This document shows, one piece after another, positions 642 through 30,155 of a stretch of DNA of 30,273 nucleotides. Positions within the stretch are counted from its first letter, which is position 1, and each line of letters begins with the position of its first letter. The stretch is from positions 1 through 30,273 of IMG/VR virus record IMGVR_UViG_3300022937_000104; one strand, written 5' to 3'. Source of the stretch: a virus. The notes beneath the pieces are model-generated. The model saw nothing but the letters and a program-made list of their open reading frames with translations. It was not told the origin of the DNA and searched no databases. The position numbers were made by a program, and so were the translations under genes.

Positions 642-649
642 TATTTATT
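642..649 (-). promoter_or_regulatory. Putative gp55-dependent late promoter for the 200-aa gene
   Basis: The minus strand reads AATAAATA, a seven-of-eight match to the T4 late promoter TATAAATA. By T4 spacing the transcript would start near 636 and give a leader of about 11 bases that begins with the AGGA ribosome site of the 200-aa gene. The element contains the TAA stop codon of the giant gene. AT-rich DNA yields chance matches, so the position relative to the gene is the main support. Confidence 0.5.
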
Positions 650-12600: not shown

Positions 12601-15600
12601 TTCCATGCTTTAACTAAACTTCCATCATGCCCTTGTATCATTGCTATACCAGGAACATGTTCTTCATAATCAAAAGTATCTTGCCCGCCTAGAGTAGTTC
12701 CAGTTACAGGGGCATAAAAAATCTTATTCAATCCTTTAAATTGTATTTTAATACTTAAAGAATTTGTATCAGCGTTTTCTGCTTGTTTTTTATTGTTATA
12801 TAACGGATAAAACCAACCAGACTTTCCAACTTGATCACTAAAAGTATCAATTTCTCCATATACTTTAAAAGGGCTAGATGTTGTATTAGCATCTGTTGAT
12901 ATAAAAGTATCATTAATAACTATCTGTGGTTGAAATTTAGGATACAACCCTAGTTTGGTTGGAGTAGGTGGAATATAACTACCATCAGTGTTGCTATATT
13001 CATAAATTTCAATTATATCACCTTCTTTCTGGTAGCTTTCGATTATTACAAATCCACCATTATCAAACGTATAATCAATTTCGTTTAATAATTGTTTACC
13101 GTTTAAGTAAATTAAAACACTTTGAGCTGTAAGTTCAGTTAATGTAAATTTTTCTGATAATGCATAATATTTTGTTCTAGGATCTAAAACTTCATATTCA
13201 ATTCTATTTTTTAAATTTCCAATTGGAAGCATATCAGAAAAATAAAATGGTTGTGTTTTAATTTTATCTTTATTAATTTGTTTTAATATATTATCAACAT
13301 GAATCCTAGTAGGACCATCAAATCCTAAATTAGTTGCAGTTTCTACAAATACTCTTTTAAATCTCGAATATTCATTTTTACTATTTTCGATTGCCTTAAC
13401 AATGTTATACTCTTTATTTGTAACATGATAAAGAGGTAAATTATTTGGGCCGCTGTGTTTTACAAAACGTTTACCAAATATTCCTACATTTCCTAAATCT
13501 CTAATATTACTAACACCGGGATGTATTCCATTAAATCCTGGAATATCTTCTATCATAGTATTAACATGATCAATAACACTACCTAATGTAAATTCAGTAA
13601 TTTCTTCATTAAGAGGATTGCGTTCATGGTTTATTGGAATTTCATAATGTCCATTTACATTTTTAGGCTGACTACTAGTTGTCTTTATAATAACTATATC
13701 ATCAATTTCGGTATCATTATTAAATGTTATAAACGCACGTTTGTTTATTCTATTAATTTCATAATCAATATTGCTAATTTGGAATTTACCGTTTAGAAAA
13801 ACCGATGTTTTTAAATCAATTAATTCACCTGCGTTTTCATATACATCAATTTCAAAATTGTTATTAATTTCTGCTGTTGAAACATACTGGCGTAAAACCT
13901 TTTGAGTAGTTTCAACAGGAATACTTGACCAACCGTTAACCCAAGTGTATGTATTAAGATCAGAATATTTTCTTAAATTTGATGTATCAGTACTAATTTC
14001 AATTGTGTCATCATCTTGCTGGATTATAAATTTATCTGTTAGTAGATTAAATTCAAATACAATATCACCACTATTTTCTAAATTTCTATAAGTTAATGGG
14101 AATCCTAATTCTGTATCAGAAACACCTGATCCTTCTTTATAAGAAAAAATCTTAGTTCCGCTAAATGTAGTACTATCGAATATTGTAGGATCAGCATATT
14201 CGTTTCCTTGAGGACAGCACAAATCAAACATAGGTGGCTGATTTGTTTTAGTTTTTATTTGCGAAAGTTTCCATTCACTACCTGTATAATGGAAAGTTTT
14301 TCCAGAATAATTAGAACCTTGTTTAACAAATACAACCTCATTTTCAATTGGATCTGTGTCGGCTGTTTCTATTAAACTTAGTAATGAATCGTTGCCAATA
14401 GTTATACGTTTTACAGTATAAATTTTTCCTTTAACTAATATATCTGTGTCAGCAGTAAATAGTACTCTCATACCTTGAGCAAGTTCTACACCGTCAACAT
14501 TATAACCTAATGCTCCTTCAATTGTACTAAAAACATCTTTAGTAGAAGTGTCAATAAGATCTACATCTTGTTTTGACCCTGTACCATAGTTATATAACTT
14601 TAACCCTGCTTCAAATTCAATAATAGGTCTTCTTGCACGGTGATTTTCATCAACTGCAACAGGTTGATTGTTAACTTTTAATGCATATTCAATTATGTCT
14701 CTATGAAACCATCTATTGTATCTAGTCCAAGGATTTCTATCTTGACTTGCTCTGTTAATAACAATGTAATCTCTAGTTCCAGGATATGCACTAGCATTTT
14801 CAAAAGGTAGTACATCGTATTCATTATTTCCATAAGGTACTAAATTAGGATCAGTATATGTGGCAGGAATTACTAAGTCGTTTTCGTTAATAAGTTGAAT
14901 TTCTGTTCCAACACCTTCAACATAATAGTATCCATTTTCGTATTTTGCCGGTGCAGTATTTCCTTGGAACTCAACTTTCATTCCATTTGAAAGTTGTACT
15001 CCGTTTGCACTTTTGTATGTTTTCTTGCCAATAATATCTGATTCTACATCTAAGAAAGTATTTTCTTCAATATCATATATTTTTACTCTGCCGCTAACAT
15101 CAACATCGTTGCGACTAATATAGAATAAATTGTTAGGTGCATTTACTGGAATAGTAAATTCAATTACACCTTTTTCAATATAAACGTTTGCAACTTCTTC
15201 TCCTGCTTCGCCTAATTTTCTAATTCCATCAGGATAAAGAGTTGAAACATTTTCATCTTCATCAAATGTTACGCTGCCGCTGCTAGGTAGTACAATGTAC
15301 TCACCTGTATCGTAGTCGTTGCCGTAAAGTTGTGCATCAAATAAACCCGGGGCCTTTACACCTTCAGACCCTGCAACAATTATTGCATTTCCTGGCGTAA
15401 ACGATCTCGAAATTGCAAACGCCATAGGGTGTTCAGGAGTGTCAATTTCAAAACGATATGTTTGGCCTCTATAAAGTTTTAGTGTTGGGTTTGCTGTTTT
15501 TCCATCAGGTGTAAATAGATAAGAAACATTGTCTCCATTATCTACCAAAGTTACTGTATATGTACTAACAACTTCTCTTCCTTGGCCTCTAACAGGAACA

Positions 15601-16067
15601 CTTAAAGGACCAGTGGGCATCCAATAGTATTCACGGAAATTAGCAAACTTGTCCCAATCAATATGAGGGTTCCATGGATACGAAATTTGATTGTTTATTT
15701 TACTGTGATCTTCTGTATTAGCACCAAAATTTGTGAGCTGATTAATATAATCATTGTAATCTTTATAAAACGTTACATTGTCTAAGTCATCTTTAATTAC
15801 AACAGCAGGTTCAAACTGGTATGCTTGTCGCTGATCTGTAACATCATTTACATAAGTGTCGCCCACTTTATAAGCCTTAGCAATAGTCCTGCCAAAGAAG
15901 CTATTAATTTTTTCAGCTACACCAGGTTGTACTAATTGATCTAATGTAGATTGTAAGAATTTTTTATTTGCTTCTGTTCTAAAGAAACGAGGTAACAAAT
16001 CTGAAGAAGCTCTTTTATTATTTCCTGGAGTTGGTAGAGCTGATTCTGTTTGATTTATTTGAGACAT
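645..16067 (-). CDS. Giant 5140-aa virion protein in the gp7 position of the baseplate block
   Basis: A single uninterrupted frame of 5141 codons starts 2 bases after the gp6 stop; GGAGG (16084-16080) lies 12 bases before the ATG. The N-terminus (residues 1-170: LLPRFFRTEANKKFLQ, PWNPHIDWDKF, YYWMPTGP) matches a family of very large structural proteins that I recall from T4-like marine phages. Visible parts: a cupredoxin-like beta segment with YRGQTYRFEI near 200; a vicinal Cys617-Cys618 in an otherwise cysteine-poor chain; repeated LNGK...DY beta modules near 760, 985 and 4210-4990; five CBM5/12-like units near 1575, 1830, 2350, 2970 and 3030; FG-GAP-like propeller blades spread over about 2240-3310; and G-x-GY repeats near 3710-3790 and 4085-4150. 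There is no signal peptide, membrane helix or long coiled coil, so it is not a tape measure. Its position after gp25-gp6 suggests a wedge or arm protein replacing or enlarging gp7 and its neighbours. The exact role is unknown. Confidence 0.85.
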   Translation of the reverse strand: MSQINQTESALPTPGNNKRASSDLLPRFFRTEANKKFLQSTLDQLVQPGVAEKINSFFGRTIAKAYKVGDTYVNDVTDQRQAYQFEPAVVIKDDLDNVTFYKDYNDYINQLTNFGANTEDHSKINNQISYPWNPHIDWDKFANFREYYWMPTGPLSVPVRGQGREVVSTYTVTLVDNGDNVSYLFTPDGKTANPTLKLYRGQTYRFEIDTPEHPMAFAISRSFTPGNAIIVAGSEGVKAPGLFDAQLYGNDYDTGEYIVLPSSGSVTFDEDENVSTLYPDGIRKLGEAGEEVANVYIEKGVIEFTIPVNAPNNLFYISRNDVDVSGRVKIYDIEENTFLDVESDIIGKKTYKSANGVQLSNGMKVEFQGNTAPAKYENGYYYVEGVGTEIQLINENDLVIPATYTDPNLVPYGNNEYDVLPFENASAYPGTRDYIVINRASQDRNPWTRYNRWFHRDIIEYALKVNNQPVAVDENHRARRPIIEFEAGLKLYNYGTGSKQDVDLIDTSTKDVFSTIEGALGYNVDGVELAQGMRVLFTADTDILVKGKIYTVKRITIGNDSLLSLIETADTDPIENEVVFVKQGSNYSGKTFHYTGSEWKLSQIKTKTNQPPMFDLCCPQGNEYADPTIFDSTTFSGTKIFSYKEGSGVSDTELGFPLTYRNLENSGDIVFEFNLLTDKFIIQQDDDTIEISTDTSNLRKYSDLNTYTWVNGWSSIPVETTQKVLRQYVSTAEINNNFEIDVYENAGELIDLKTSVFLNGKFQISNIDYEINRINKRAFITFNNDTEIDDIVIIKTTSSQPKNVNGHYEIPINHERNPLNEEITEFTLGSVIDHVNTMIEDIPGFNGIHPGVSNIRDLGNVGIFGKRFVKHSGPNNLPLYHVTNKEYNIVKAIENSKNEYSRFKRVFVETATNLGFDGPTRIHVDNILKQINKDKIKTQPFYFSDMLPIGNLKNRIEYEVLDPRTKYYALSEKFTLTELTAQSVLIYLNGKQLLNEIDYTFDNGGFVIIESYQKEGDIIEIYEYSNTDGSYIPPTPTKLGLYPKFQPQIVINDTFISTDANTTSSPFKVYGEIDTFSDQVGKSGWFYPLYNNKKQAENADTNSLSIKIQFKGLNKIFYAPVTGTTLGGQDTFDYEEHVPGIAMIQGHDGSLVKAWKDYRDNLLLEFESRIFNNIKSKYDKSYLDIDNFVPSKFRKTDYTRTQINNTLLKDFIQWLKLVDNDYTLNNFYDRTNPFTFNYAKMNSVVDGEYLPGFWRGVYKEVYDTDRPHTHPWEMLGFSIKPSWWNEVYGPAPYTGNNLNMWSDLENGYVKEPGKQIRVLNNYIRPGLANFVPVDGQGNLKHPIESNYAQNPFFRNTPAGFVFGDYSPVESAWRKSSEYPFALLRAWLLNKPAKVMGLGFDKSRITKNLAGQYVYSTTAKNIKLDQLRMPNTVEDSSRIITSGLVNFVYNLVASNQLNVYNDYRENLKSITNQLGIKIGGFSDKTKFKLILDSRTPLTTQENNIYVPEENYKLFLNTSSPVKTLVYSGVIVEKQPSGFVIRGYNEATPYFEYFETKSTSSDVAITVGGISESTVTWQEDKDYFKGQVVENNFKYYRVIKNFTSGTSFETDNLAILPELPIVGGKRAIFRRNFLKSSIKKLPYGTSLKNSQAVVDFLLGHEEFLKSQGLQFDFFNTETNYVENWDHAAREFLFWTTQGWSAGTTISLSPASKQLFLQSKYSVVDDIFDEFYSYDLFKSDGRVLPKENISIFREDNSFNLTSVNSDDGIYNLSMPLVQKEHVLLIDNKTVFNDLIYDPSTGYRQERIKVLGYRSDNWNGGLNIPGFVYDSALITEWESWKDYNIGDLVKHKQFYYVATYKVPGSEEFVSTYWYRLSEKPEPKLLTNFDYRINQFADFYDLDSDNFDAEQQRMAQHLIGYQKRNYLANIITDDVSQYKFYQGFIQDKGTKNAITKLFDPLSSANKDSIEFYEDWAIQVGRYGATNDIEQVEYIIKEDDIKESPQCVELVNTIPKESFDKIFRIKPDEVYDKPEGYDHKPFPTTKLKEYVVSGGYVHDDDVEYKAGSIEDLNSGDINQLSIGEYIWLARTVTDDWKVYQISNSIANVTTLTDNETTSPGGKSLFTLTLDKWAAPILNIGDIVAVKGAQDFALNGMYKIYNISGATIQIELPVNNEAIEFDQENYVLIKLREVRVETLDGLNTIVQEKVYDNQTVWVDNYNEDSWGVFKNTPVYSQNYEFNNPVEINDDLHRFGEIMSVTDDNNNLFFGIPEKGNGEVYHYRRTRDVNPFVQDPIISIPEDYFEIENAKFGKGVSVSKDGQYLAVSIPNASNVKTKFKGLFNSFGPNGTEENPASYVKGDIVKYRESLWRANREILPQIGSQPFSTFDTYTNIASGTDADSTSIRLLVAGNSGLPETRADHILVRAPKDMYLGTAVGDKIKLYWNIRSYAYPTLDNYYPFDQQIPEITVSYINDLHTIQEKIDHVFRLPAYLALPQIGDLITTDTGSGQVAYVESDRDSGVVYINNVTGVFDISGELFLNNEFISLYTEEDTYNLSEDLGGFWKISAPLHYNAGVNYDIGRGLVYVDVLRADETRDSFEYYNVQSTVGEIGSYITNNNRASFITHLSYFGDAGGIEQPYPSNKWVARVSRDFDDLIESGLTNIDFNLYNLDNRTIDVASSGFTYELLNKNQTIIDLWDGYIDFEFTEFDFQGNVFEPAIGDIIEDIQTPFDEFGGLAQTSYSTSTAEVVFYQRNFNTVRVYVKNITGNWVELNNIGKIQLRRKSGANNTVNPSIRGNNDVDRTMGTIENFNNSVVLDNRPTSPAGKLAVFEASSSFDSTTVWNEVVPIADEEYWFFKEATNVPGAARSANPPNALSKDYTQVYHIPGDTYGVASGYNNEGAVAIYVKISNGTYQLTKILTSEYTTNNRQFGSKVQFVKKDGLYTLLISSEGNGTREDPGSIEIFKHGYTDEEDFAGDWNSLNDYSQNNIVKHVNDYYVALKDITAADQTTNSIFDTTKWINISWKSGKDQYYRGEYNNTQAYAINSVVNIDGRLYKAKTNIAANSTLSLNDWTLITSELDYLGYLPNLTGNAFYDETVYDPADNISKFSHTFDVSLDGSILVVVSILDDTDSSFAGSTRKQVVIYRLDGDKYSVSQIIDGSDSLTEFADSVKINPQGTVIAISEPSNDDIKINQGQVHIYKQVNGAFVFYQTLESPNNEESEKFGSSISFSSDNLVISSLNGDMKIPTTFDISYENETTFDLGFTEFRNIIKDTGVVYVYENIEDTLVFSESFRYPSAELMFGETLLANNNHVYVGMPRNQVTDSVGTVVDYRKGKGLLAWNRIRELVPPVDVSRLRGAFLYNKRQNQIVTYLDYIDPIQGKIAGPAEQEITHKVGYDPAKYNISTYTGLDTDVFWAEEHVGEVWWNLSTARFVYPYQGDIQYQKAHWNELQPGASIDVYEWVESSLLPSQWDEIADTEIGMKTGVSGTSVYGDAQYSRKFTYDDISQTFNSKYYFWVERKLTIPDVENRSLSVYDIARLIAQPREQGYRHISFAGDNRFILNNCDSLIYNDDIVLNVRYSTGPKLGQNVHNAYYIMSDGLSTSEIHPDIERKWLDSLIGYDTNYRQVPNPELTVKQKYGVQNRPRQSMFINRFEALKQAIERINIVLKENIIVDEYNISLLNSKELAPNEVTNEFDVTVDTIEELRFVGTNKISPAKLTPIINNGKLVSVKITDPGRGYKRPPSYKIYGTGVEAEFTVSINNLGQISEITINNSGKGYDSKTTIGVRPFTVLVNSDNEVLGKWALYSWDQIKKEWYRKSIQDYDVSRYWSYIDWYADGYNEFTIPDFIIEESNQLQSVNDVITDIVKINNVGTGGWLLLRKIADEDTEDYTVNYETIGRENGTLQFNDSLYDYSKNTVGYDNRSFDSYFYDNNPINELRIIFKAIKENIFINKLKVEYNQLFLASLRYVFAEQPYVDWAFKTSFVKAKHNLGYLEQDVTFNTDTLDSYKSYIEEVKPYKTVIREFVSSYESLDNTNSSITDFDLAPAYDDITKTINPSIAKVNGSQIVDVDENIKIYPRKHWLDNSGYKVTSINVTDGGNGYTYKPVVKIEGGGGTGATAEAYLGYGKVTSIKVTNEGSGYITAPTIIIEGAIQDGGTPAKAFPVLGKGVVRNPSVTIKFDRVSGSYFIETLAQIEEFTGTNLNTKFDLEWPMDLRNDSVIVYIDDVEQLRSSYNFKNVTNKDAGYTRSQGQINFTSPPAYLANIRVEYKKPLSMLTASDRINHGYDPLDNMFGKDLAQLMSGIDYGGVEITSFDFGGPAGWDTDGWYTDTWDKFDNSYEDYVFTFDGSTTAIELPEPFEQDVIYNVYIKRSGELVPIRVDDPNYGTSNTINNPNALMQSITGDGVTTVLDLGADDITLLDNDVLIVRKNTSDGSFIPDPESYDTQLTGGTLAYASAKGVNAEEIIVDGDGFVTPTTSGGPEEFVPGHVSDTVDIKVYTRESGGTARIECQNYFLDGTGPAELTYKLGITPGSNPSVIVKLNDVILSENTYTINWKNNTVTIENPLTPSELNIVAIERTGQDILDFGKTIADGSTAFYETNLEYVEDMQVHVTLDGVKVPVYIEQIPNSTRVGILFEITPEEGKVIHYSAFNNSDEINYSQVTKDSFVGNGNNVEYTLSAAPFYSEPTAYNVLVKVGNRILNAGYSIQFDVTQSTLQVFELETFQQPGNALQASDLRVFLNGKELSTPVDWRIDIFTSSIEISEGIANAGDILEVFVVTDGEYQINGDRLVLNVAPAQNESVEVFKFSNHNIQSFERINYDVITRDILLEEDIQYVTYQRLTVGEIKLRKPAHDTQYVWVSVNGELLSPSGDYRLSDDKTTVILSKKPNQNDVIDIVHFAGEVNRPKFAFRQFKDMLNRTHFKRLDSPEAKLVKDLNYYDLRIEVDDASRLPEPNKYSNIPGVIFINGERIEYFVKEENMLRQLRRGTLGTGVKDINPAGTGVYDQGISKTIPYKDITQIQEEVTYGTNTVDLNFIANSVNEFEVFVGGRRLNKNEKVVFDPTKALDSSKGDFVLPADFRLDNSIDEQGNILSSTIVLQSIPREAEKVVVVRKIGKLWSEPGTTLGETQNDIGYFLRAGTTALPE

Positions 16068-19553: not shown

Positions 19554-19571
19554 ATAAAGTGCTAACTTTAT
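19554..19571 (-). terminator. AT-rich stem-loop between gp25 and gp6 (weak terminator or processing site)
   Basis: A perfect 7-bp inverted repeat, ATAAAGT and ACTTTAT, encloses a 4-base loop. On the transcript strand the stem begins within the gp25 stop codon. Only one of the seven pairs is G-C and no uridine tract follows, so it is unlikely to be a strong intrinsic terminator. It could protect the 3' end of the upstream transcript or reduce read-through before the late promoter at 19546-19539. Confidence 0.4.
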
Positions 19572-20008
19572 TATTTAAGGCCAGCAGCCTGATCAAAACG
19601 GAATAAAAGTTGTTCTGAAATATTGTATGGCAAATATGAAATAGTACAGTCTACAGTTATTCCTGACTCGTAAGTATCTACTAAAATCTGTTCTACATTT
19701 ACCCTTGGATCATAGTTTACAATATCAGTAACATTTTTAATTATAGCATCTCTAATATTATTAGTAAAAGGTTCGAATAACAAATCCCAAATAATACATC
19801 CAAAAGTTGGATCACTTAATTTTTCACCTTGGCGTATATGAAAATGATTAATAATGTCTTGCTTAATTAATTCAAAGTCATAAAGTGCAAAACCTTCACT
19901 ATTTTCGTTACTACTAGAAAATCCTCTGTATGCTCGACCGCTTGTTGCTTGTTGCGGACCACTTGATACAGTTACTCGTTTATAAAGATTTTTTTCTAAT
20001 GTGCTCAT
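19571..20008 (-). CDS. 25: Baseplate wedge protein gp25
   Basis: The 145-aa product has the gp25 / GpW-gp25 signature: a Gly-rich, Ser-rich N-terminus, then YDFELIKQDIINHFHIR, LSDPTFGCIIWDLLFEP and RVNVEQILVDTY. T4 gp25 is 132 aa. gp25 forms the core bundle of the wedge with gp6 and gp53 and is thought to start sheath polymerisation. The gene is 15 bases after the gp5 stop and its ribosome site is weak (AGGG, 10 bases before the ATG), so translation may depend on coupling to gp5. gp25 next to gp6 is the arrangement conserved across contractile injection systems. Identity is secure. Confidence 0.93.
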   Translation of the reverse strand: MSTLEKNLYKRVTVSSGPQQATSGRAYRGFSSSNENSEGFALYDFELIKQDIINHFHIRQGEKLSDPTFGCIIWDLLFEPFTNNIRDAIIKNVTDIVNYDPRVNVEQILVDTYESGITVDCTISYLPYNISEQLLFRFDQAAGLK

Positions 20009-20023
20009 ACTGTATTTACCCTA

Positions 20024-22753
20024 TTACTGTGCGCCGCCGCCGTCGCCTGCAACATCTGTATCTTTTGTCTCTCCTTGTTGCGGTTCAATTTCTTCTGGTA
20101 ATAACGGTATTTGTCCGTTCTTAAGTCCAGGCACTGTACCGTTTTCATTTGTTGCTTTACTAAAGTGCATAGCATCATCTAATGAACGCCAATCTCCGCC
20201 CCAGCCTAGGCCATACTTTTTACACAATGCACGTACTGCTTCAACCGGCATATCTGTTATAGGTGCGTTTGGTGGACGAGGTTTAAAGAATCCGTTTGGT
20301 CTTCCATTCATTACATTGTCAGGCCAGTTAATATCAATGGCGCCGCCGGATGCGTGTACAGACCAACTTGTGCCACTAACTGTTCTACGTTTACTGTAAC
20401 CACCGAGTTTCTTAATTTCGTACCCAGTTGCTTCAAGTTCGTTAATAAAGTTTTGGAAATCATCAGCAAATACTGCTGCAACCTGTGTGCTTTTTCCAGA
20501 AGCAGATGTAATAGTAGCTAGAGGACCATCTGTTCCGTCTGGGTTAAAGGTTGCTGTTGTTTCTGCTTTGCGTCCTGGAGGTGCTCCAGTAATTCTAGGA
20601 CCAGTAGTTGTAACACTTGATTGATCGTCTTGGGCTCTAATACCGTCTCCAGTTGTACCTGTAAACGAACCAGCAGTATACGCACTACTTTGAACAAGAT
20701 TACTAGTTGCAATACCATCTAAGTTTTTACGGAATGAGTCAACTGTTAGTACACGGTCATTGAGTGGAAGCACACCTGGTTCTTCTCTGTCAGTTTCTTC
20801 AGGTTTAAATCCATAAGGATTAGCATTTTCATGGTGCGGCCAAGGCTCGTGCTGTGGAGCTCGTGTTAGTATACTTTCAAAATCAACTGCTGTATGTGCG
20901 CCTGGTAAAATATAAGGTAAAGTGATCATTCTTAGAGGTTCAACAGGCGTTGCAGGTCCTGCTGGAGTTGCTGTTGTTGAACGTAATGCTTCAAGAGGAT
21001 CTACTGGAACTCCGCCTTCACTTGCTGGCGAACTAGCACCATTGTTCCATTCAATAGCAGCAGAGTCTGCTGCTATTAAACTACCGCCTTGAATATTAAC
21101 TGTACCAACTGCATTATGAAAGGAGTCTGCGCCAGCAATAATATGATGACTTGCTGCTGCTGCATGATGTATATCTTCAGCAGACAGTACAACATATTCT
21201 GCTGCGGATTTATGTCTAATATTTGATTCTGATGTTAAATGTACTTCGCCGGTGATCTTTGTATGACTATAACCGTCAACAGTAGTTTCAGTATTTCCTT
21301 CGACATAAGAATGACTGTTGCCGCCGCCTTCAACTCGTGTTTGCATGCCAGTATTTGTTAAAAAATGTATACCGGCAGCAATATCATAAATGTTAGCATC
21401 TGAACGTCTGTAAAAACTATTACCCGATGTATGATGTGTTGCTTTAGTTGACGATTGATAAATGTTGTTATCGGTATTCAAATGATAATCTCTATCAACT
21501 GTTGTTCTCATGTCTTTATGAACAACGGTATGACTATAATCTTCTACAGTTAAATGGTAGTCTTTGCCAACGTGCATATGAGTATTAAATGCACTTTCAA
21601 TTGTTACTCTACCAGAATCTTTACCGTTATCAGTTTGTTTTTTATCTGAATATCGCGCCGTAGCCCTCATATTAATATTGCGGCCTGCATCAAGATTAAT
21701 ATCTCTACTAGCAGATAAATTAAGATCATTGTCTGAAAATACACTTACACTATCTTTAGCATAAATGTCAATTTTACCATCACTGGTCATTTCTAACCAA
21801 GCAGTGCCTCGACTATTTCCAATATAAATTAAATCTTCAGAATTGTGTAGTAGAATTTGGTGACCTGTTCTAGTACGAATGCGTGTTAATTCGTTTTGCG
21901 GAACAGTTTCGTCACCGCCAGTTTCGCCTGCTTCTCGGTTAATATAAATTGGCGGGCCGTCGGCAGCATGTGTATTTCTAATAAATTTATCATCACCGTC
22001 GTCCATAACAAAACTAGAACCGCCTAGTCTATTAAACGGAACATTAGCAGCACCTGTGCTAGTACCATATTTTGCTTTTGGATTGCCGTTACGTTTATCT
22101 AAAGGTCCTGGTGTTGAAATACCAAATACCATACTTGGAGTTTCTCGTCTAGCACTAGTAGTAGTTGTACCTCTTGCTTCGTCGAGTATTAAACCTTGTA
22201 CTTCTAGTATTTCTGTAAAGTCTTTGTTGTAGGGTTTTTCAAATAGTGTAGGATCTATTTTAGATCCTGATTCTATTAACTTATTATATTCACCTACTGG
22301 TAGTTTTGTACCTTTTAAATTATCAGGTGTACCGGGCGTAGTATTTTCTGTAACGGCACGACCATCCGGTAACATAAAGTTCATACCAACGTCTTGGATA
22401 CAACCTATCCAATAACCGTATGCTGCGCTACCTTCTGCAAATATTACAAGTACTCTTGTTCCGACATCTGGAGGAACAGCCCACATGCCGTAACTTTTCT
22501 GGGTAAATTCGTATCCGTCATTAGGTGTTAATCCTTTATTTGGTGTGACACCGTAAAAAGGACTTAGGTATCTAACATTAACAAGTTGACCGCTACGTTC
22601 AGGTGTGCCTGAAGCACCGTCGTACTTCAATATTTCAACTTCTAACGTACCCATGTACAATGGGTCAAGATGACTTACAATGATTGCCTCATAAGGACCA
22701 CGGTCTCTTATTTTAGATTCTTTAACTCTTGTTCTTGTATATTGGTTTGCCAT
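20024..22753 (-). CDS. 5: Baseplate central spike gp5-like with C-terminal M15 peptidase
   Basis: The product is 909 aa. Residues about 15-150 form the gp5 / VgrG-type OB-fold (YEAIIVSHLDPLYMGTLEVE, GYWIGCIQDVG). Residues about 288-571 are short repeated beta strands typical of the trimeric spike beta-helix (DGKIDIYAKDSVSV, INLDAGRNINMRA), with many histidines from about 390 onward. Residues about 745-880 are an M15-type zinc peptidase: His800 and Asp807 in SVHASGGAIDI and His863 in DDAMHF supply the expected ligands, with Asp860 in the catalytic acid position. The M15 family cleaves peptide cross-links or stems in peptidoglycan, so the domain probably opens the cell wall during injection. 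T4 gp5 instead carries a lysozyme domain between the OB-fold and helix. Here the lysozyme-like domain is in the preceding gene, 18 bases upstream. The ribosome site is weak (GTAGAAAC). Confidence 0.9.
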   Translation of the reverse strand: MANQYTRTRVKESKIRDRGPYEAIIVSHLDPLYMGTLEVEILKYDGASGTPERSGQLVNVRYLSPFYGVTPNKGLTPNDGYEFTQKSYGMWAVPPDVGTRVLVIFAEGSAAYGYWIGCIQDVGMNFMLPDGRAVTENTTPGTPDNLKGTKLPVGEYNKLIESGSKIDPTLFEKPYNKDFTEILEVQGLILDEARGTTTTSARRETPSMVFGISTPGPLDKRNGNPKAKYGTSTGAANVPFNRLGGSSFVMDDGDDKFIRNTHAADGPPIYINREAGETGGDETVPQNELTRIRTRTGHQILLHNSEDLIYIGNSRGTAWLEMTSDGKIDIYAKDSVSVFSDNDLNLSASRDINLDAGRNINMRATARYSDKKQTDNGKDSGRVTIESAFNTHMHVGKDYHLTVEDYSHTVVHKDMRTTVDRDYHLNTDNNIYQSSTKATHHTSGNSFYRRSDANIYDIAAGIHFLTNTGMQTRVEGGGNSHSYVEGNTETTVDGYSHTKITGEVHLTSESNIRHKSAAEYVVLSAEDIHHAAAASHHIIAGADSFHNAVGTVNIQGGSLIAADSAAIEWNNGASSPASEGGVPVDPLEALRSTTATPAGPATPVEPLRMITLPYILPGAHTAVDFESILTRAPQHEPWPHHENANPYGFKPEETDREEPGVLPLNDRVLTVDSFRKNLDGIATSNLVQSSAYTAGSFTGTTGDGIRAQDDQSSVTTTGPRITGAPPGRKAETTATFNPDGTDGPLATITSASGKSTQVAAVFADDFQNFINELEATGYEIKKLGGYSKRRTVSGTSWSVHASGGAIDINWPDNVMNGRPNGFFKPRPPNAPITDMPVEAVRALCKKYGLGWGGDWRSLDDAMHFSKATNENGTVPGLKNGQIPLLPEEIEPQQGETKDTDVAGDGGGAQ

Positions 22754-22771
22754 CTATGTTTCTACTTTACA

Positions 22772-24661
22772 TTAATTATTTTTAAACGTAACCACCGGTG
22801 GTACTGTTTGATAGTTTGTTGTATAAGTTCCGCCTTTTAAATCTACACCAGATTGCTTTGCTGTAGCTTTGGTTTCGTCAATTTCATTTAGTTTAGATTT
22901 CAACTGATTTACTGATTGTGTATAACTTGTTTTATTTTTTACTCTATTACTAACCGAGTTAATTGTAAGTCCATATGGATATCCCATATCAATTTTACTT
23001 TCTATAACTTGTTTTGCTGATTCATTTGTAAATAACTGTCTTTCTAACTGTACAATTTCGTCACTTCCCGGATCAGAGATTTTAAGTTCTTCAATTCTGT
23101 CGTACAATACAACTCCTTCGTTAGTTAATTCTAATAACCGATCATCTAGTTCTTGCTTGTACACTAACGGTTCGTCATCAACAATTTGTTTTAATGTTGC
23201 TGATAAATTATCAACACTTTCTTTCTTTGTGTCTAAACTATCTTGTAACTCTATTGTGCGTGACTTTAATAAATCATTAACATCACTTGCAAGATCATTA
23301 TTTTGCGGAGCAGTACTTAATCCAGATTTTGCCGGTGCCGGTGCAGATATTGTTGCTGGTGGTTTTAAACTTCCTAACCCTGACTTACCTAACCCTGTAG
23401 GTACTCCTTTTGAATCAAAATCTAAAGGATTAGGTATTTTCTTAATAGGTGATAATTTTCCTGACAGTCCGTCGGCGCCGCCACCGCCTCCGCCGCCACC
23501 ACCACCGCCTGCTCCTCCGCCTGCTCCTCCGCCGGCAGAACCTCCTGTGCCACTAGTTGATCCTGTTACAGTATTAGTTGAAGTCGGTAACCCCGGTGTG
23601 TCGCTATATCGACCTGCTTGTGTAGAGGAAGCATCTCTGCTGTCGAGTATTTCATTAACTTGCTGCATTGTAAATGTTTCTGGATCAACACCTTCGTTAC
23701 CTGCTACACCTAAATCACCTCCAGGAGTACTTGTGCTTCCAGGTGCATTTTCTTGTACTGACATTGTGCCGTTTTCTAATAATCTAGCAACTTTTTTACC
23801 TGTTCTAAAATCATAACGATCATCTAATGGGTCAATTATTTCGTATTTGTAAACATCTGTTGCATCCGGTAAATTATTAGGTAATGCAGGTCGATTTCCT
23901 GATCCGCCTGTAACTCTCGAACCTCCGCTTCCAAAATTTCTCATTCTAGCTTCAGGAGTATTTCCTTCTTGGCGATACCCGTCGCTACCAACAGGTGCAG
24001 TAGGAATTGGAGTTTCAGTTCTACCTTCAGCGGCTGCGTTGCCTTGTGCAGTTGGAATTGTTTCAATTTCTCCAGGTCCTCCACGATAGATATCAATTAG
24101 TGCAGATAAAAATTGATCTGCATCGTGGTGCGACTTGTTTAGTCCGTCACCTGCATAAAAACTTTGACCTTTTGTTAAGTTACGCTTAGGATGACTACTA
24201 GAAACAATAGATGAACCTGCAGGCATATCATACGGAACTGGACAGCTTGCCCATTCTGCTGCAAGATATTCCATAAACTTTTGGCTGTTTTCAATTTCCT
24301 TTTGTGCAGGATCTGGATTTGTCGAAAGCTCTCCGGCTTTCCATTCGTTATATTTGCGTTGTGCTTTGATTTTATCAAGCATCATAATATCTTGAACTTC
24401 TGCTGTATAACGAACTTGTGTAGGATCAAATCCTGAACGACGGCAACTTTCTTCTACAACTGCTTTAAGCATTTGATATTTGCCAACTGCCGACGAGCGC
24501 CAGGTTTTCATGTACGAATTCTGGAACTGTAAAACTTCACCAATAAGCATTTGAGTTAATGGGTGTGTTTCTCCGCCATATATCATGTCATAAGTTCCTG
24601 CTTCGTGTTTCGCAACAAGACGCAGAAGTGCTTTATCTTGATCAGTTATCTCATATGACAT
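22772..24661 (-). CDS. Lysozyme-like baseplate protein with polyglycine linker and coiled-coil tail
   Basis: The 629-aa product begins with a lysozyme/transglycosylase-like domain (residues about 1-200): LLRLVAKHEAGTYDMIYGG with Glu20 as the likely catalytic acid, LTQMLIGEVLQFQ, and SSAVGKYQML (56-65), the pattern seen in phage muralytic domains of the GH104 or related class. Residues 200-370 are a Pro/Gly/Thr-rich linker and 371-398 are almost pure Gly with some Ala and Ser. Residues about 450-580 are Leu/Asp/Glu/Lys-rich and probably coiled coil. The N-terminal activity probably cuts glycan strands while the C-terminal part attaches to the hub or spike. No signal peptide or holin-like neighbour is present, so a virion-associated role is favoured over an endolysin. 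GGAGGAG (24679-24673) precedes the ATG by 11 bases. It lies between the hub gene and gp5. Confidence 0.75.
   Translation of the reverse strand: MSYEITDQDKALLRLVAKHEAGTYDMIYGGETHPLTQMLIGEVLQFQNSYMKTWRSSAVGKYQMLKAVVEESCRRSGFDPTQVRYTAEVQDIMMLDKIKAQRKYNEWKAGELSTNPDPAQKEIENSQKFMEYLAAEWASCPVPYDMPAGSSIVSSSHPKRNLTKGQSFYAGDGLNKSHHDADQFLSALIDIYRGGPGEIETIPTAQGNAAAEGRTETPIPTAPVGSDGYRQEGNTPEARMRNFGSGGSRVTGGSGNRPALPNNLPDATDVYKYEIIDPLDDRYDFRTGKKVARLLENGTMSVQENAPGSTSTPGGDLGVAGNEGVDPETFTMQQVNEILDSRDASSTQAGRYSDTPGLPTSTNTVTGSTSGTGGSAGGGAGGGAGGGGGGGGGGGADGLSGKLSPIKKIPNPLDFDSKGVPTGLGKSGLGSLKPPATISAPAPAKSGLSTAPQNNDLASDVNDLLKSRTIELQDSLDTKKESVDNLSATLKQIVDDEPLVYKQELDDRLLELTNEGVVLYDRIEELKISDPGSDEIVQLERQLFTNESAKQVIESKIDMGYPYGLTINSVSNRVKNKTSYTQSVNQLKSKLNEIDETKATAKQSGVDLKGGTYTTNYQTVPPVVTFKNN
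23467..23549 (-). repeat. Glycine-codon tract (GC-rich low-complexity repeat)
   Basis: About 83 bases consist mostly of GGN codons, encoding Gly with a few Ala and Ser (residues 371-398 of the lysozyme-like protein). The tract is a sharp G+C-rich island in an AT-rich region. The third bases vary (GGT, GGC, GGA), so it is an imperfect trinucleotide repeat and not a homopolymer run. Such tracts act as flexible linkers and can change length by slippage. Confidence 0.85.
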
Positions 24662-24664
24662 TTA

Positions 24665-27600
24665 TTAACCAGCTCCTCCGCTTTGTGCTGCTCGTCTAGC
24701 CTGTCTTCTTAGATACGCTTCACTATATTGACGACCTTCTGTTCTATTTACAGGAGGACGGGTGCCAGCGGCTTGACTTGTGGCCGCTGAAACTCCAGCA
24801 ATTGCTGCTTCTCTTGCTCTAAAACTTGCTTGAGCTGCTGCTTGTGCTGCTTGTGAACTAGCGTTCGCTGCGGCAGCAAGTGCAGGATCAACTTGCCCTG
24901 CTTCAAACCCTAATTTTAACGGAAACACTCCCTGAACTGTATCTCTTACAAGACTTGTTCTGTCACCTTTAGTGCTTTGTGCTACAAATTGTCTTAATTC
25001 AGGATTTGCTTGTATAAAATCTGATACATTTGAAACTTTTCCAGCTACTAATTCTTTTACACCTTCTTCAATTTTTCCTGTTATTAGCAATTCTTGCGTT
25101 CGAACTACATCTGGTCCAGACGTAACTGCATTAACTGTATTAGTTACTATAGATTTAATTTCCGATACAGCAGATTGAGCTGCTTGAGATGCTTGAGCTG
25201 CTGCCAAATCGCTAGGTGCGCTTGCTGCTGCTCCGCCGCTGTCTAAACGTTTTTCTTTAGAAGCTAGAATAATTGGTGTTTTATTTCCAGTTGTGCTTTC
25301 GTCGTTTTGTCCTTTCATACGTATCATTTTAAGCGTTTGTTTAAATTGTCCTCCTGCAAAATTTGATTGTGCGCTAATTACTCGATACAATCCACTAAAC
25401 TGTGGAACTAACACCGGAAAATCCATTAATGATCCTGCGACTTGATAGTCTAAAGGAGATTTAAAGTTTAAAAGTATGTAAACTTCGTTTCTCATAAATT
25501 CCATTGCACCATCAGCATTTATAGTAGGATCTTGAGGAGCTGCACTATAGTTTCCTAAATCTGTTGGTAAAAAATACGGATCTCCCCATATTTCTATCTC
25601 AGCACTAATCATATCAATTTGACTGTTTACTAATCTTTCATGGAACATTTGAGCAATACGTGCTTCTGTACCGTGTGCTGTAGGTTTAGGAGCGCCGCCA
25701 GAACTAGGTGCACCAGGAGAGGTAAATTCTGCGGGTCCTGTAGGATCATTAGTTGAACAAGGGGCTTTTGGACGAGCAATTTCAGAACCTTGTTGTTGTC
25801 CGCTATTTGTAGTTTCTTGATTTATGCTTTCTCTACCTTGTGCCATATCAGCACGTAGACTATTAAAAAATGCATTATTAAAGTTAATATCAAAATTTAA
25901 TACATCTTCATTTTTTCCAGTGTAAATGTAGTTGTATTCTTTTTTTACCATAGATTTCAAAGAAGAAACACTCGACGGACGTTCTCCTGCGCTTAATGTA
26001 GTAGCTTCGTGAGGAGTAAAAGGTTGAACACAATACACATAAGTTCTTCTAGGTCTACCTAATTCACATTCCATTGTTTTATCATTGTCAATAAATGTTA
26101 AGGTTTCAATTCTAAACCATTTCTTAAAACCCTGGACGCTTTCTTCTTTTGCAACGTCTCTTGCGTATGCAGAGTTGAGCATCACAGTTTCAATAATATT
26201 TGTAATTTTATCATTTTGGCTAAATTGATAACTTCTAGCTTTATTTGCTGTTTGGCTTTCGTTGTTTTGTCTTTGATTTGTTTGGGTTTCTTCATTATTA
26301 ACACTAGATGCATCTGGCATAGGTTGTGGTGCACCGTCTCTAGAGTCTTCTAATAATAAACTTCTACCTAATTCATTCATATTATTGATATCAGAAGCAT
26401 ATGCTTTTAGATACAAATAAGTATTTGGTGCATTAGAACTAATTACAGGAATAGCACTTTCTTCAGTGTCGGGATCAGATAAATCTCTTTGTTCAGCTTG
26501 TCCTTGACGTATTCTTTCTTGTTCCTCTGCCTTCATTGTAGCTCTTAATGCACTTAGGTCTACATTTTGGTTTTTTATCGCATTTACTAAGCCATTCTTG
26601 TCCTTAGGAAATGCAATTAAATATCTGTCATATCCTTTGATTAAGTTCTTGTTTTCTAATTCTTCAATACGGTCATTAAGAATATTTGCAACAGAATTTT
26701 TTCCAGATTCTAACACTTCGTGAACACTAGATCCTGATGCATTAATAGAAACTTGTGCTTGGTTTGCAGTATCTGTTAAACCTGTCTCGTTATAAGGAAT
26801 AGCTTTAGTTCTATATACACTGCCTTGATTTGTTACTTCAAAATCAGTGTTAGTAAATTTTATTGGGATATAAAAAGGTTTAATTGATGAAGACACATCA
26901 TTGCCGTTATCGTCCCAGCCTACAAATTCAAGTTTTAAACAAAACGGAGCATCAACATAATTTTGGTAGCCTGCCTTTTGCGATGCAAGTAGCAGTGCCT
27001 CAATGTATTTTCCCATACTATAAGGTTCTGTTACAGTAAATTCGATATTAGTGCCTAACGCAGTACCGGTATTTGAGTTTGGAGAAAGTATTGCTTTAAT
27101 ATCAATGTCGTCAATATAATATTCTGCATCGTTATCAGGTAATTCATCTCTTGTTTTAACTCTTGTGCTGTATCCTGTTGTTCTTAATCCGCCACCTGAT
27201 TTTACAACAAAGTATTTAAAATCTGCACCGTTTCTATAACTAGTAGGATTATTATATTGAGACGAATCAAGTATTCCTAATGTAGCAATATAATTATACG
27301 AATTAAAATTCCTTAAAGGATTTGGAATTCTATTACCTGTTTGAGAAAGAGAACCTCCTGACGAATTGCTAGTAATTGATGAGCCAAGGAGACCTCCTAA
27401 AAAACTTAGTGGATCATTTTCGAGTTTAACTCCTTCGATGTATGATTTAGCTCTATCAAATTCGCCGCCAATAGCACCGGCTAGTTCTTGAAAATTTTGA
27501 CTTACAAGTTTTATAGGATTAAATGCACTAATAGAATCTGCAAATGTTCCTGAACTAAACGTGCCGCCTGAAGAAAAACTTGTAAAACCTAAACCGTCTA

Positions 27601-28006
27601 ACTTAGAACTTAGTGCTGAACTAATTTTATTAGGATTAACACTTAAATCTGAAAAATTTCCTAATGCACTACTAACTCTATTAAATGATGCGTTTAAGTC
27701 TCCAGCTAGTGCAGAAGCATTAATATTCCCACTAGATAGAGTATTGTTTAATGATCCACTTAATTTATTTAATGTTGCAGAGATATTACCACTAGCTAGT
27801 GAAGAATTTAATTGATTTCCTAAGCTGTTAACTCCACTAGTTTGTAAATTTAAAGAAGATATTCTATTGTTTAATTGTGATGCAGCAGAATTTGCATTTC
27901 TTAAAGATGAATTAAGACCATTCGAAAACTGAGAATTTAGTGATTTAGAAAAATCATTGAGTCCTGTATTAACTGCCTTAGAAATGCTTGACAATGTCAA
28001 TGCCAT
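24665..28006 (-). CDS. Large probable baseplate hub protein, 1113 aa
   Basis: Residues 1-215 are Ser/Asn/Leu-rich with regular Leu spacing (SSISKAVNTGLNDFSKSLNS), probably helical or coiled. Residues about 235-430 form a beta-rich domain (YNYIATLGILDSSQYNNP, FTVTEPYSMGKYIEALLLAS, APFCLKLEFVGWDDNG). Residues about 800-935 resemble the end of hub/gpD-type proteins (EIEIWGDPYFLP, SGLYRVISAQSNFAGGQFKQ). The last 130 residues are Ala/Gln-rich helix. Hub proteins of the gp27 class join the tail tube to the spike. The place between gp53 and the lysozyme/gp5 pair fits that role. I recognise it as a structural protein of T4-like marine phages, but the gp27 equivalence is inference. It starts 1 base after the gp53 stop, with AGGAG 6 bases before the ATG. 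Confidence 0.7.
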   Translation of the reverse strand: MALTLSSISKAVNTGLNDFSKSLNSQFSNGLNSSLRNANSAASQLNNRISSLNLQTSGVNSLGNQLNSSLASGNISATLNKLSGSLNNTLSSGNINASALAGDLNASFNRVSSALGNFSDLSVNPNKISSALSSKLDGLGFTSFSSGGTFSSGTFADSISAFNPIKLVSQNFQELAGAIGGEFDRAKSYIEGVKLENDPLSFLGGLLGSSITSNSSGGSLSQTGNRIPNPLRNFNSYNYIATLGILDSSQYNNPTSYRNGADFKYFVVKSGGGLRTTGYSTRVKTRDELPDNDAEYYIDDIDIKAILSPNSNTGTALGTNIEFTVTEPYSMGKYIEALLLASQKAGYQNYVDAPFCLKLEFVGWDDNGNDVSSSIKPFYIPIKFTNTDFEVTNQGSVYRTKAIPYNETGLTDTANQAQVSINASGSSVHEVLESGKNSVANILNDRIEELENKNLIKGYDRYLIAFPKDKNGLVNAIKNQNVDLSALRATMKAEEQERIRQGQAEQRDLSDPDTEESAIPVISSNAPNTYLYLKAYASDINNMNELGRSLLLEDSRDGAPQPMPDASSVNNEETQTNQRQNNESQTANKARSYQFSQNDKITNIIETVMLNSAYARDVAKEESVQGFKKWFRIETLTFIDNDKTMECELGRPRRTYVYCVQPFTPHEATTLSAGERPSSVSSLKSMVKKEYNYIYTGKNEDVLNFDINFNNAFFNSLRADMAQGRESINQETTNSGQQQGSEIARPKAPCSTNDPTGPAEFTSPGAPSSGGAPKPTAHGTEARIAQMFHERLVNSQIDMISAEIEIWGDPYFLPTDLGNYSAAPQDPTINADGAMEFMRNEVYILLNFKSPLDYQVAGSLMDFPVLVPQFSGLYRVISAQSNFAGGQFKQTLKMIRMKGQNDESTTGNKTPIILASKEKRLDSGGAAASAPSDLAAAQASQAAQSAVSEIKSIVTNTVNAVTSGPDVVRTQELLITGKIEEGVKELVAGKVSNVSDFIQANPELRQFVAQSTKGDRTSLVRDTVQGVFPLKLGFEAGQVDPALAAAANASSQAAQAAAQASFRAREAAIAGVSAATSQAAGTRPPVNRTEGRQYSEAYLRRQARRAAQSGGAG

Positions 28007-28007
28007 A

Positions 28008-28304
28008 TTATGCTCCTAATATTTCTCTAAGATGTTGTCCTTGTGGCAAATATATCTTTGTACCTGCTACAAAATCATATATAGGATCTTTTATAATATC
28101 CATATTACGCTGTGCAAACACCCACCAAAGTTCTCTTTTTCCGTATAAGTCGTGTGCTAACAAATCTGGTCGGTGTGTATAAGCTGGCAAAATTTCGTAA
28201 AGAATATCATTTTTAGATTCCGGAACTGGACGTATTTTTAATAAATCTAGATATCCTGACTCTAATAATTTTGTATTAGCATATGGTCCGAATTTAGATA
28301 ACAT
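28008..28304 (-). CDS. 53: Baseplate wedge protein gp53-like, short form (98 aa)
   Basis: The pattern HRPDLLAHDLYGKRELWWVF, then IKDPIYDFVAGTKIYLP, is the conserved core of gp53 and of LysM-like wedge proteins of contractile tails. In T4, gp53 (196 aa) clamps neighbouring wedges by binding gp25 and gp6. This protein has about half that length and seems to keep only the LysM-like core. Its ATG overlaps the stop of the upstream gene in TAATG, a one-base overlap typical of translational coupling. A GGAGG sequence lies about 9 bases upstream, inside the previous gene. The assignment rests on the core motif and the position. Confidence 0.83.
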   Translation of the reverse strand: MLSKFGPYANTKLLESGYLDLLKIRPVPESKNDILYEILPAYTHRPDLLAHDLYGKRELWWVFAQRNMDIIKDPIYDFVAGTKIYLPQGQHLREILGA

Positions 28305-29336: not shown

Positions 29337-30155
29337 ATGAGACCAAGGAATTATCTAAACAACAAAGACATTTTACTCGAAATACACAGATCAAAAAATA
29401 AATTTTGCAGTTATACTGACGAACAATACGCTAATTATGATATAATTTTACCTGATATTGAAAAAATTAACATCAGGACTATTGCCGAAGCAAAACGAAA
29501 CAAAGCTAAACGTCTTAGTACTTCTGATTACGAAAGACGAAAAATGGCAGGAGAAAAGGTAAAACAAGCAGACTGCGAAGTTGATTATAAAAGTATTACA
29601 AAAGAAGAACTTATTTTTCGAATTATGACGTTTGATCACATTCCAGAAGAGCCCGGTCGTAAGAAAAATCCTAAAACAGAAGCAGATCGTAAAACAAAAC
29701 TTAACTTTCCTCCATTTCATCATTACAAATTTAATGATGATGGTGAACTTGAGTTAGTTGGAAAAAGTCATTGGATTGGCGGTATGGAAAACGGACATTT
29801 TTCTAAAGATCACGGTAAAGCAACTGATAAACTTGCAATGATGTGGATGAAATTAGTAGATCGTTATGCAACTCGCGGCAATGTTCGCGGTTATACGTAC
29901 AACGACGAAATGAAAGGGCAAGCAATATTGCAACTTGCACAAATTGGATTACAATTTGATGAGTCTAAAAGCCAAAACCCTTTTGCTTACTATACAGCAG
30001 CAGTTACAAACTCATTTGTACGTGTTATCAACATTGAAAAACGCAATCAAAACATTAGAGACGATATCCTCGAAATGAATGATTTAAATCCATCGTTTAC
30101 AAGACAACACGCCGGAGAATGGGAAGCAAGTCTAAAAAGAAACTCTGAGTCATAA
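29337..30155 (+). CDS. 55: Late-transcription sigma factor, gp55-like (272 aa)
   Basis: The C-terminal half has the T4 gp55 family core: RGYTYNDEMKGQAILQLAQI (region-2-like helix) and NPFAYYTAAVTNSFVRVINI, EKRNQNIRDDILEMNDLNP and PSFTRQH. gp55 replaces the host sigma factor and directs RNA polymerase to TATAAATA-type late promoters, acting with the gp33 co-activator and the gp45 clamp in T4. The N-terminus (YLNNKDILLEI) also matches the family. At 272 aa it is longer than T4 gp55 (185 aa); the extra part is a basic, Pro-containing segment around residues 60-145 (EEPGRKKNPKTEADRKTK). The ATG has GGAG with a 5-base spacer. It is transcribed away from the baseplate operon, and the gp47-like gene follows 63 bases downstream. 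Confidence 0.9.
   Translation: MRPRNYLNNKDILLEIHRSKNKFCSYTDEQYANYDIILPDIEKINIRTIAEAKRNKAKRLSTSDYERRKMAGEKVKQADCEVDYKSITKEELIFRIMTFDHIPEEPGRKKNPKTEADRKTKLNFPPFHHYKFNDDGELELVGKSHWIGGMENGHFSKDHGKATDKLAMMWMKLVDRYATRGNVRGYTYNDEMKGQAILQLAQIGLQFDESKSQNPFAYYTAAVTNSFVRVINIEKRNQNIRDDILEMNDLNPSFTRQHAGEWEASLKRNSES

Follow-up and report, generated by a model that had tools for sequence, protein, structure and literature searches.

The baseplate locus

The window analysed here, that is, the whole stretch of 30,273 nt, comprises positions 1-30,273 of the IMG/VR virus record IMGVR_UViG_3300022937_000104. It contains a run of baseplate genes, which, like all features described below unless stated otherwise, lie on the minus strand. 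An ORF at 20024..22753 encodes a gp5-like central spike protein of 909 aa with a C-terminal M15 peptidase (phrog_13211, E 6e-46; Pfam matches to M15_4, an OB fold and DUF2345). The next gene upstream (5'), separated from gp5 by 18 bases, encodes a 629-aa protein with a lysozyme-like domain, hereafter called the partner (22772..24661; phrog_90, annotated as endolysin, E 1.4e-19). It is followed by an ORF for a protein of 1113 aa at the position of gp27 (24665..28006; phrog_11190, E 2.6e-24). As hhalign detected no match between this protein and T4 gp27, and a comparison with the PDB gave no match either, it is named hub-like by position only. The context is fixed by a neighbouring gp25 baseplate wedge protein (19571..20008; PF04965, E 2.8e-9), and a gp53-like baseplate wedge protein is encoded at 28008..28304 (phrog_7145, E 6.7e-25). 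Thus, gp5 lies among baseplate genes, with relatives of gp53, gp25 and gp6 adjacent. The order gp53 - hub-like - partner - gp5 - gp25 - gp6 is found in the window and in many relatives, and the partner is placed after gp5 in some of them.

Several minor features of the region were also recorded. Two short motifs, G(Y/F)xxGQ(V/I)DPALA and DPRGxDQ, are repeated across the relatives, in the C termini of hub-like proteins, in partners and in the linkers of gp5, and the hub-like protein of the window (24665-28006) contains such a repeated short motif at aa 1037. A 5140-aa ORF after gp6 (645-16067, minus strand) has weak tail-fibre-like, FG-GAP and carbohydrate-binding matches only. A gp55-like late sigma factor (29337-30155, plus strand; phrog_12791, E 6e-79) is transcribed away from the baseplate run.

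The spike protein and its C-terminal peptidase

The N-terminal part of gp5 is an OB-fold region (aa 17-120; 22394..22705), in which aa 86-119 match PF04717 at E 0.0018, a match below the family cut-off, and the modelled fold aligns with the OB fold of IF-1 (Z 8.8 over 68 residues). It is also through its N terminus that gp5 is assigned by PHROGs to phrog_13211, which is annotated as 'baseplate hub subunit and tail lysozyme'. A beta-helix occupies aa ~311-569 (21047..21823), as indicated by a DUF2345 match at aa 317-365 (E 2e-5), beta-solenoid matches and regular strands that extend to aa 569 in the structural model. The gp5 alignment reveals a further conserved segment, the spike tip, at aa ~606-677 (20723..20938), which ends in ...VDSFRKN, also the end of gp5 proteins that carry no enzyme. 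In particular, the tip motif HEPWPHHEN (aa 635-643; 20825..20851) is present in 74 of the 79 gp5s of the first dereplicated set, which includes PA5oct and SCTP-2, both ending at HEPWPHHEN, and is found almost never in shuffled sequences.

The tip segment is joined to the enzyme by a flexible linker of ~65 aa (aa 678-742; 20528..20722), which is weakly conserved and has pLDDT values below 50 up to aa 733. Among enzyme-bearing gp5s, the distance from the motif to the enzyme ranges from 70 to 281 aa, and the intervening stretch is rich in G, S, T, N, P and Q. Since enzyme-less gp5s stop at HEPWPHHEN...DTFxK, that is, at the tip segment, the enzyme can be regarded as a module appended behind a conserved tip. 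One relative (L171:8995-11287) has its gp5 divided between two overlapping ORFs, of 318 and 475 aa, owing to a frameshift or to an error of assembly. The model of the whole window gp5, calculated as a monomer only, has a mean pLDDT of 50.8, with aa 571-733 below 50; such a poor single-chain model is expected if, as is likely, the spike is trimeric, and by analogy with T4 gp5 is probably a trimer. Only the M15 domain, the helix and part of the OB fold were used from this model.

The M15 peptidase domain spans aa 746-885 (20099..20518) and is well defined in the model from near aa 741 (pLDDT 77-90 over aa 741-790). PF13539 matches aa 794-865 with an E value of 1.7e-12 and 48.1 bits against a cut-off of 25. 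All 17 aligned homologues have H800, D807 and H863, and D860 is kept in nearly all of them. The M15 profile matches L-alanyl-D-glutamate peptidases, namely Ply500 (PDB 2vo9, E 0.001) and 8q2g (E 0.003); the HxxxGxAxD and DxxH motifs of gp5 are in register with those of the matched enzymes, and the zinc ligands align with those of Ply500. By family, the domain would thus be an endopeptidase of the L-Ala-D-Glu type. A lysozyme hidden in gp5 was looked for, and no match to a glycosidase or lysozyme was found by Pfam, PHROGs or six profiles (LYS, LT, VG3, GH24, GH19 and SleB types).

A preliminary description of this DNA had proposed that gp5 lacks a lysozyme domain and ends in an M15 peptidase with His800, Asp807 and His863 in place, and both statements are borne out by these searches and by the alignment. 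The same description had placed the enzyme at the end of the beta-helix and asked how it is positioned relative to the membrane-piercing tip. The enzyme is indeed C-terminal of the helix, but does not follow it directly, as the tip segment and the linker lie between them. In outline, this answers the question of placement: the enzyme of gp5 would be tethered behind the tip and would not itself form the tip.

The partner protein and its candidate docking motif

Lambda lysozyme is a lytic transglycosylase. The N-terminal domain of the partner (aa 1-206; 24044..24661), the part that is matched by phrog_90, has no match in Pfam, and a profile built from 19 homologues matches lambda lysozyme weakly (E 0.015). 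Glu20, which is invariant in these 19 homologues, is aligned opposite the Glu of 'WSEGT' in lambda lysozyme. The domain is modelled with pLDDT values mostly of 80-96. A plain Foldseek search with the partner model returned nothing significant, probably because one third of the model is disordered; VIA re-alignment of Foldseek candidates did give matches, the best of which was to the A-1(L) baseplate hub, in its lysozyme domain (8kea_A, Z 11.7), followed by lambda lysozyme (1am7 and 3d3d, Z 10.0 over 137-139 residues), with the next families at Z 4.7 or less. The partner 'lysozyme' therefore appears most like a lambda-type lytic transglycosylase, not T4 lysozyme. The claim that the upstream neighbour of gp5 encodes a lysozyme-like domain accordingly stands.

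Residues 207-330 of the partner are predicted to be disordered except near the motif DRYDFRTGKKV (aa 281-291; 23789..23821), a candidate docking motif. Its general form, DRYDFxTGxK, is present in 24 of the 28 partners that have the lysozyme-like (LYS) domain and in 30 neighbouring proteins that lack it. Three hub-like proteins (L200, L202 and L214) carry the motif at their C termini, and it occurs almost never in shuffled sequences. The motif is not universal, as it was not seen in CHAP partners of the more distant lineages (L216). Because it is kept when the enzyme is gone and can be fused to the hub-like protein itself, it is suggested that the partner is a component of the baseplate hub, in which DRYDFxTGxK probably anchors it. 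The C-terminal half of the partner contains a long poly-glycine stretch and a conserved region (aa ~441-629) that is common only to close relatives.

Exchange of enzymes behind a conserved spike

Scans with gp5 and partner queries yielded 388 complete related gp5 genes, which were dereplicated to 147 representatives. Enzyme classes were assigned with profiles seeded in this analysis and checked with Pfam where possible. Among the relatives, the spike and the gene order are conserved, and the region behind the spike tip is variable. Here gp5 carries M15a (the window type), M15-like b, M15-like c, a VgrG3-type muramidase (PF21277, E 1e-34), a T4-type GH24 lysozyme (PF00959, E 1e-17), the LYS family of the partner, a transglycosylase-like (LT) domain, GH19, Hydrolase_2 (SleB type) or no enzyme; a trypsin-like domain is found in Atu_ph07. 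The M15-like b, gp5 GH19 and LT classes are assigned on weak or indirect matches. Type b has few PDB matches, and it is called M15-like since these are led by M15 enzymes (E 0.03-0.09) and both HxxxGxAxD and HxD are present; hhalign found no match of type b or c to M15a. PF00182 matches the gp5 'GH19' weakly, and the class profile matches GH19 endolysins at E 1e-12. The trypsin-type (TRYP) assignment on Phosso gp5 was not confirmed by Pfam.

The enzyme family of gp5 changes at least 21 times on a tree of gp6. Moreover, the families are not confined to one protein. The partner's LYS family is found on gp5 itself in L203, L386, Atu_ph07 and Phosso, and hub-like proteins ending in M15 occur in L049, L110, L200, L386 and others. 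L386 represents a reciprocal swap, in which gp5 bears LYS and the hub-like protein bears M15. In a clade of the gp6 tree (L336-L373), gp5 ends at the tip segment and no recognised wall enzyme is seen in the hub region. A PAAR match was found in one of 12 relatives' records, the 330-kb one, the other records being fragments.

Pairing of glycan and peptide cutters

In 72 loci, enzymes are carried by both gp5 and another baseplate protein, and in 71 of these one is a predicted glycan cutter and the other a predicted peptide cutter. With the class on gp5 given first, 40 loci are glycan/peptide, 31 are peptide/glycan, one is peptide/peptide and none is glycan/glycan. Where gp5 bears an M15-type peptidase, another protein of the baseplate region bears a glycan cutter, either LYS alone or LYS together with GH19. 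Where gp5 bears a glycan cutter, it is accompanied by a hub-like protein ending in M15, by a CHAP peptidase partner, or by no second enzyme that could be seen. In the lone same-class locus (L211), an M15-like gp5 lies beside a CHAP domain (L211:11126-12202) that lacks the catalytic Cys and His. These residues have also been lost in the CHAP of L275 (6390-7691), which is found beside a Phage_lysozyme2 and M15-like protein, and both are present in the aligned CHAPs that accompany a glycan-cutting gp5. A further CHAP without catalytic Cys and His was noted at L213:4958-6028, in a locus that also has an M15-like peptidase.

Two enzymes are not obligatory, since a glycan cutter occurs alone in 28 full loci (23 of the VgrG3 type) and 18 full loci have no recognised enzyme. 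As read from the genes, the pattern is that no two intact enzymes of the same class reside on separate proteins, rather than that there are always two. The preliminary description had assigned wall attack to two proteins, the spike with its M15 peptidase and a lysozyme-like protein apart from it. Both domains were found, and relatives with enzymes on two separate proteins nearly always pair a glycan cutter with a peptide cutter; the division over two proteins is one of several arrangements among the relatives.

A model of wall penetration and its alternatives

It is likely that the locus encodes the wall-penetration module of a T4-like myovirus tail, in which a conserved central spike is combined with interchangeable enzymes, an M15 peptidase tethered behind the tip and a lambda-type transglycosylase on a partner protein. 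The model starts from the observed domains, catalytic residues and gene order and from the enzyme swapping and glycan/peptide pairing among relatives; from these, we infer the activities, the location in the virion, docking by the motif and an order of events. The spike would consist of the OB base, the beta-helix and the conserved HEPWPHHEN tip segment, with the M15 domain hanging behind the tip on its flexible tether. The partner, with its putative lambda-type lytic transglycosylase, would sit in the baseplate hub via DRYDFxTGxK. The spike would pass through the outer membrane as the tail contracts, M15 would cut the stem peptides and the transglycosylase the glycan strands, and a hole would open for the tube.

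An end-of-cycle lysis endolysin that merely resides in the baseplate operon, leaving gp5 M15 as the only enzyme acting at entry, would account for the endolysin annotation of the partner's best PHROG match and for its fold, which is that of the lambda endolysin. However, baseplate genes flank the partner in many relatives, its motif is common to enzyme-less partners and hub-like C termini, its domain family sits on gp5 itself in the four relatives named above, and the closest solved fold is a domain of a baseplate hub; together, these observations make an endolysin role unlikely. The spike-borne M15 might in turn act as a protease in processing or assembly, or have become an inactive remnant, as the Asp before the last His is replaced by Asn in 11 of 95 gp5-borne M15a domains (counted before dereplication). 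Such a role is still more improbable, given that the domain matches peptidoglycan L-Ala-D-Glu peptidases with its zinc ligands conserved and that unrelated wall hydrolases replace it at the same spot of gp5.

The origin of the pairing is harder to judge. The swapping of enzymes could be real and the combination of glycan and peptide cutters nevertheless inherited by descent, not selected. Large clades share one arrangement, and switches of gp5 between the peptide and glycan classes with a known complement amount to 3-4 independent pairs on the gp6 tree, all compensated or neutral, which are too few for a phylogenetic sign test to reach significance. On the other hand, many unrelated family pairings stay mixed in class despite the frequent changes of gp5 enzyme family. 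When the classes of the other protein were informally re-dealt over 12 distinct family pairings, which share ancestry, an all-mixed outcome was obtained in 1 of 495 deals. Furthermore, CHAP catalytic residues have been lost in both lineages that also have an M15-like peptidase. We consider inheritance by descent a serious possibility, though on this evidence a doubtful one. An explanation by selection is offered in the form of a hub with two sockets, one behind the spike tip and the other on the hub or a DRYDFxTGxK-docked partner. Selection might keep one glycan and one peptide cutter, families might swap freely within a class and even move from one socket to the other, and where a second cutter of one class is redundant, it would lose its catalytic residues, as in the CHAPs of L211 and L275. 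This proposal is plausible but tentative.

Relation to known systems

T4 gp5 carries a GH24 lysozyme between its OB fold and its helix. It shares the OB fold and beta-helix spike with the window protein, which is likewise neighboured by relatives of gp53, gp25 and gp6; however, T4 gp5 ends without the HEPW tip, and the window gp5 has no lysozyme between OB fold and helix. T4 gp5, to which the protein had initially been compared, is not the best yardstick, because C-terminal gp5 enzymes are common in jumbo-phage relatives such as CBB and Atu_ph07. With its lysozyme between OB fold and helix, T4 is the odd one.

The evolved VgrGs of type VI secretion systems, in which gp27- and gp5-like parts are fused, carry hydrolases behind the helix and serve bacterial competition. 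The window gp5 resembles them in bearing a wall hydrolase (M15, aa 746-885) after a gp5-like beta-helix, and relatives of the window carry the VgrG3-type PF21277 domain as well. In the window, unlike in the VgrGs, the hub-like protein has an ORF of its own (24665-28006), and the apparatus as a whole belongs to a phage tail. Ply500 and lambda lysozyme (gpR) resemble the two enzyme domains of the window in fold and catalytic residues, but they are free endolysins for exit and not parts of a baseplate.

Among phages, baseplate hub enzymes have been described in Anabaena phage A-1(L), whose hub protein gp15 contains lysozyme, endoglucanase and peptidase domains, the latter two of which lysed host cells (PMC10966104; PDB 8kea). 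In structure, the partner N-terminal domain matches the lysozyme domain of this hub best. All enzymes of A-1(L) are part of one hub polypeptide and its spike is bare, whereas in the window they are divided over two ORFs, one for the spike and one for the partner. A jumbo-phage relative, Pectobacterium phage CBB, has a gp5 (CBB_240) with a neighbouring lysozyme gene, CBB_239 (PMC5259590). CBB gp5 combines an OB fold and a beta-helix with a C-terminal GH24 lysozyme and a possible central M23 domain (a weak match); it differs from the window protein in its enzyme families and in that one chain carries enzymes of both the peptidase and the lysozyme type, and no DRYDF partner was seen. The gp5 of Agrobacterium phage Atu_ph07 carries the same LYS family as the partner together with a second type of enzyme (Trypsin_2, E 6e-17), but both are located on one chain, and a serine-protease-like domain takes the place of M15. 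Both cultured relatives fit the pairing, with GH24 and a weak M23 in CBB and LYS and Trypsin_2 in Atu_ph07.

Spikes that bear a wall enzyme, and baseplates that combine two types of enzyme, are thus already known. In the literature searched, which left most subscription journals outside, no description was found of the division of M15 and LYS over two proteins, of enzymes repeatedly changing sockets, of their near-exclusive pairing or of the candidate docking motif. Entry through the wall is usually told one phage at a time, and a conserved spike with exchangeable enzymes provides a natural replacement series in one scaffold. It makes testable the need of a contractile tail for both a glycan and a peptide cutter, tethering behind the tip and docking through a short motif. 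Moreover, it corrects the notion that gp5 means lysozyme: the annotation 'tail lysozyme' is wrong for many such proteins. The M15a or LYS families were also noted in cultured cyanophages, S-H38 (L223:1632-5222), Syn19 (L224:3748-8394) and P-TIM40 (L225:3709-7578), on hub-region proteins of 1200-1550 aa that are annotated as hypothetical or endolysin.
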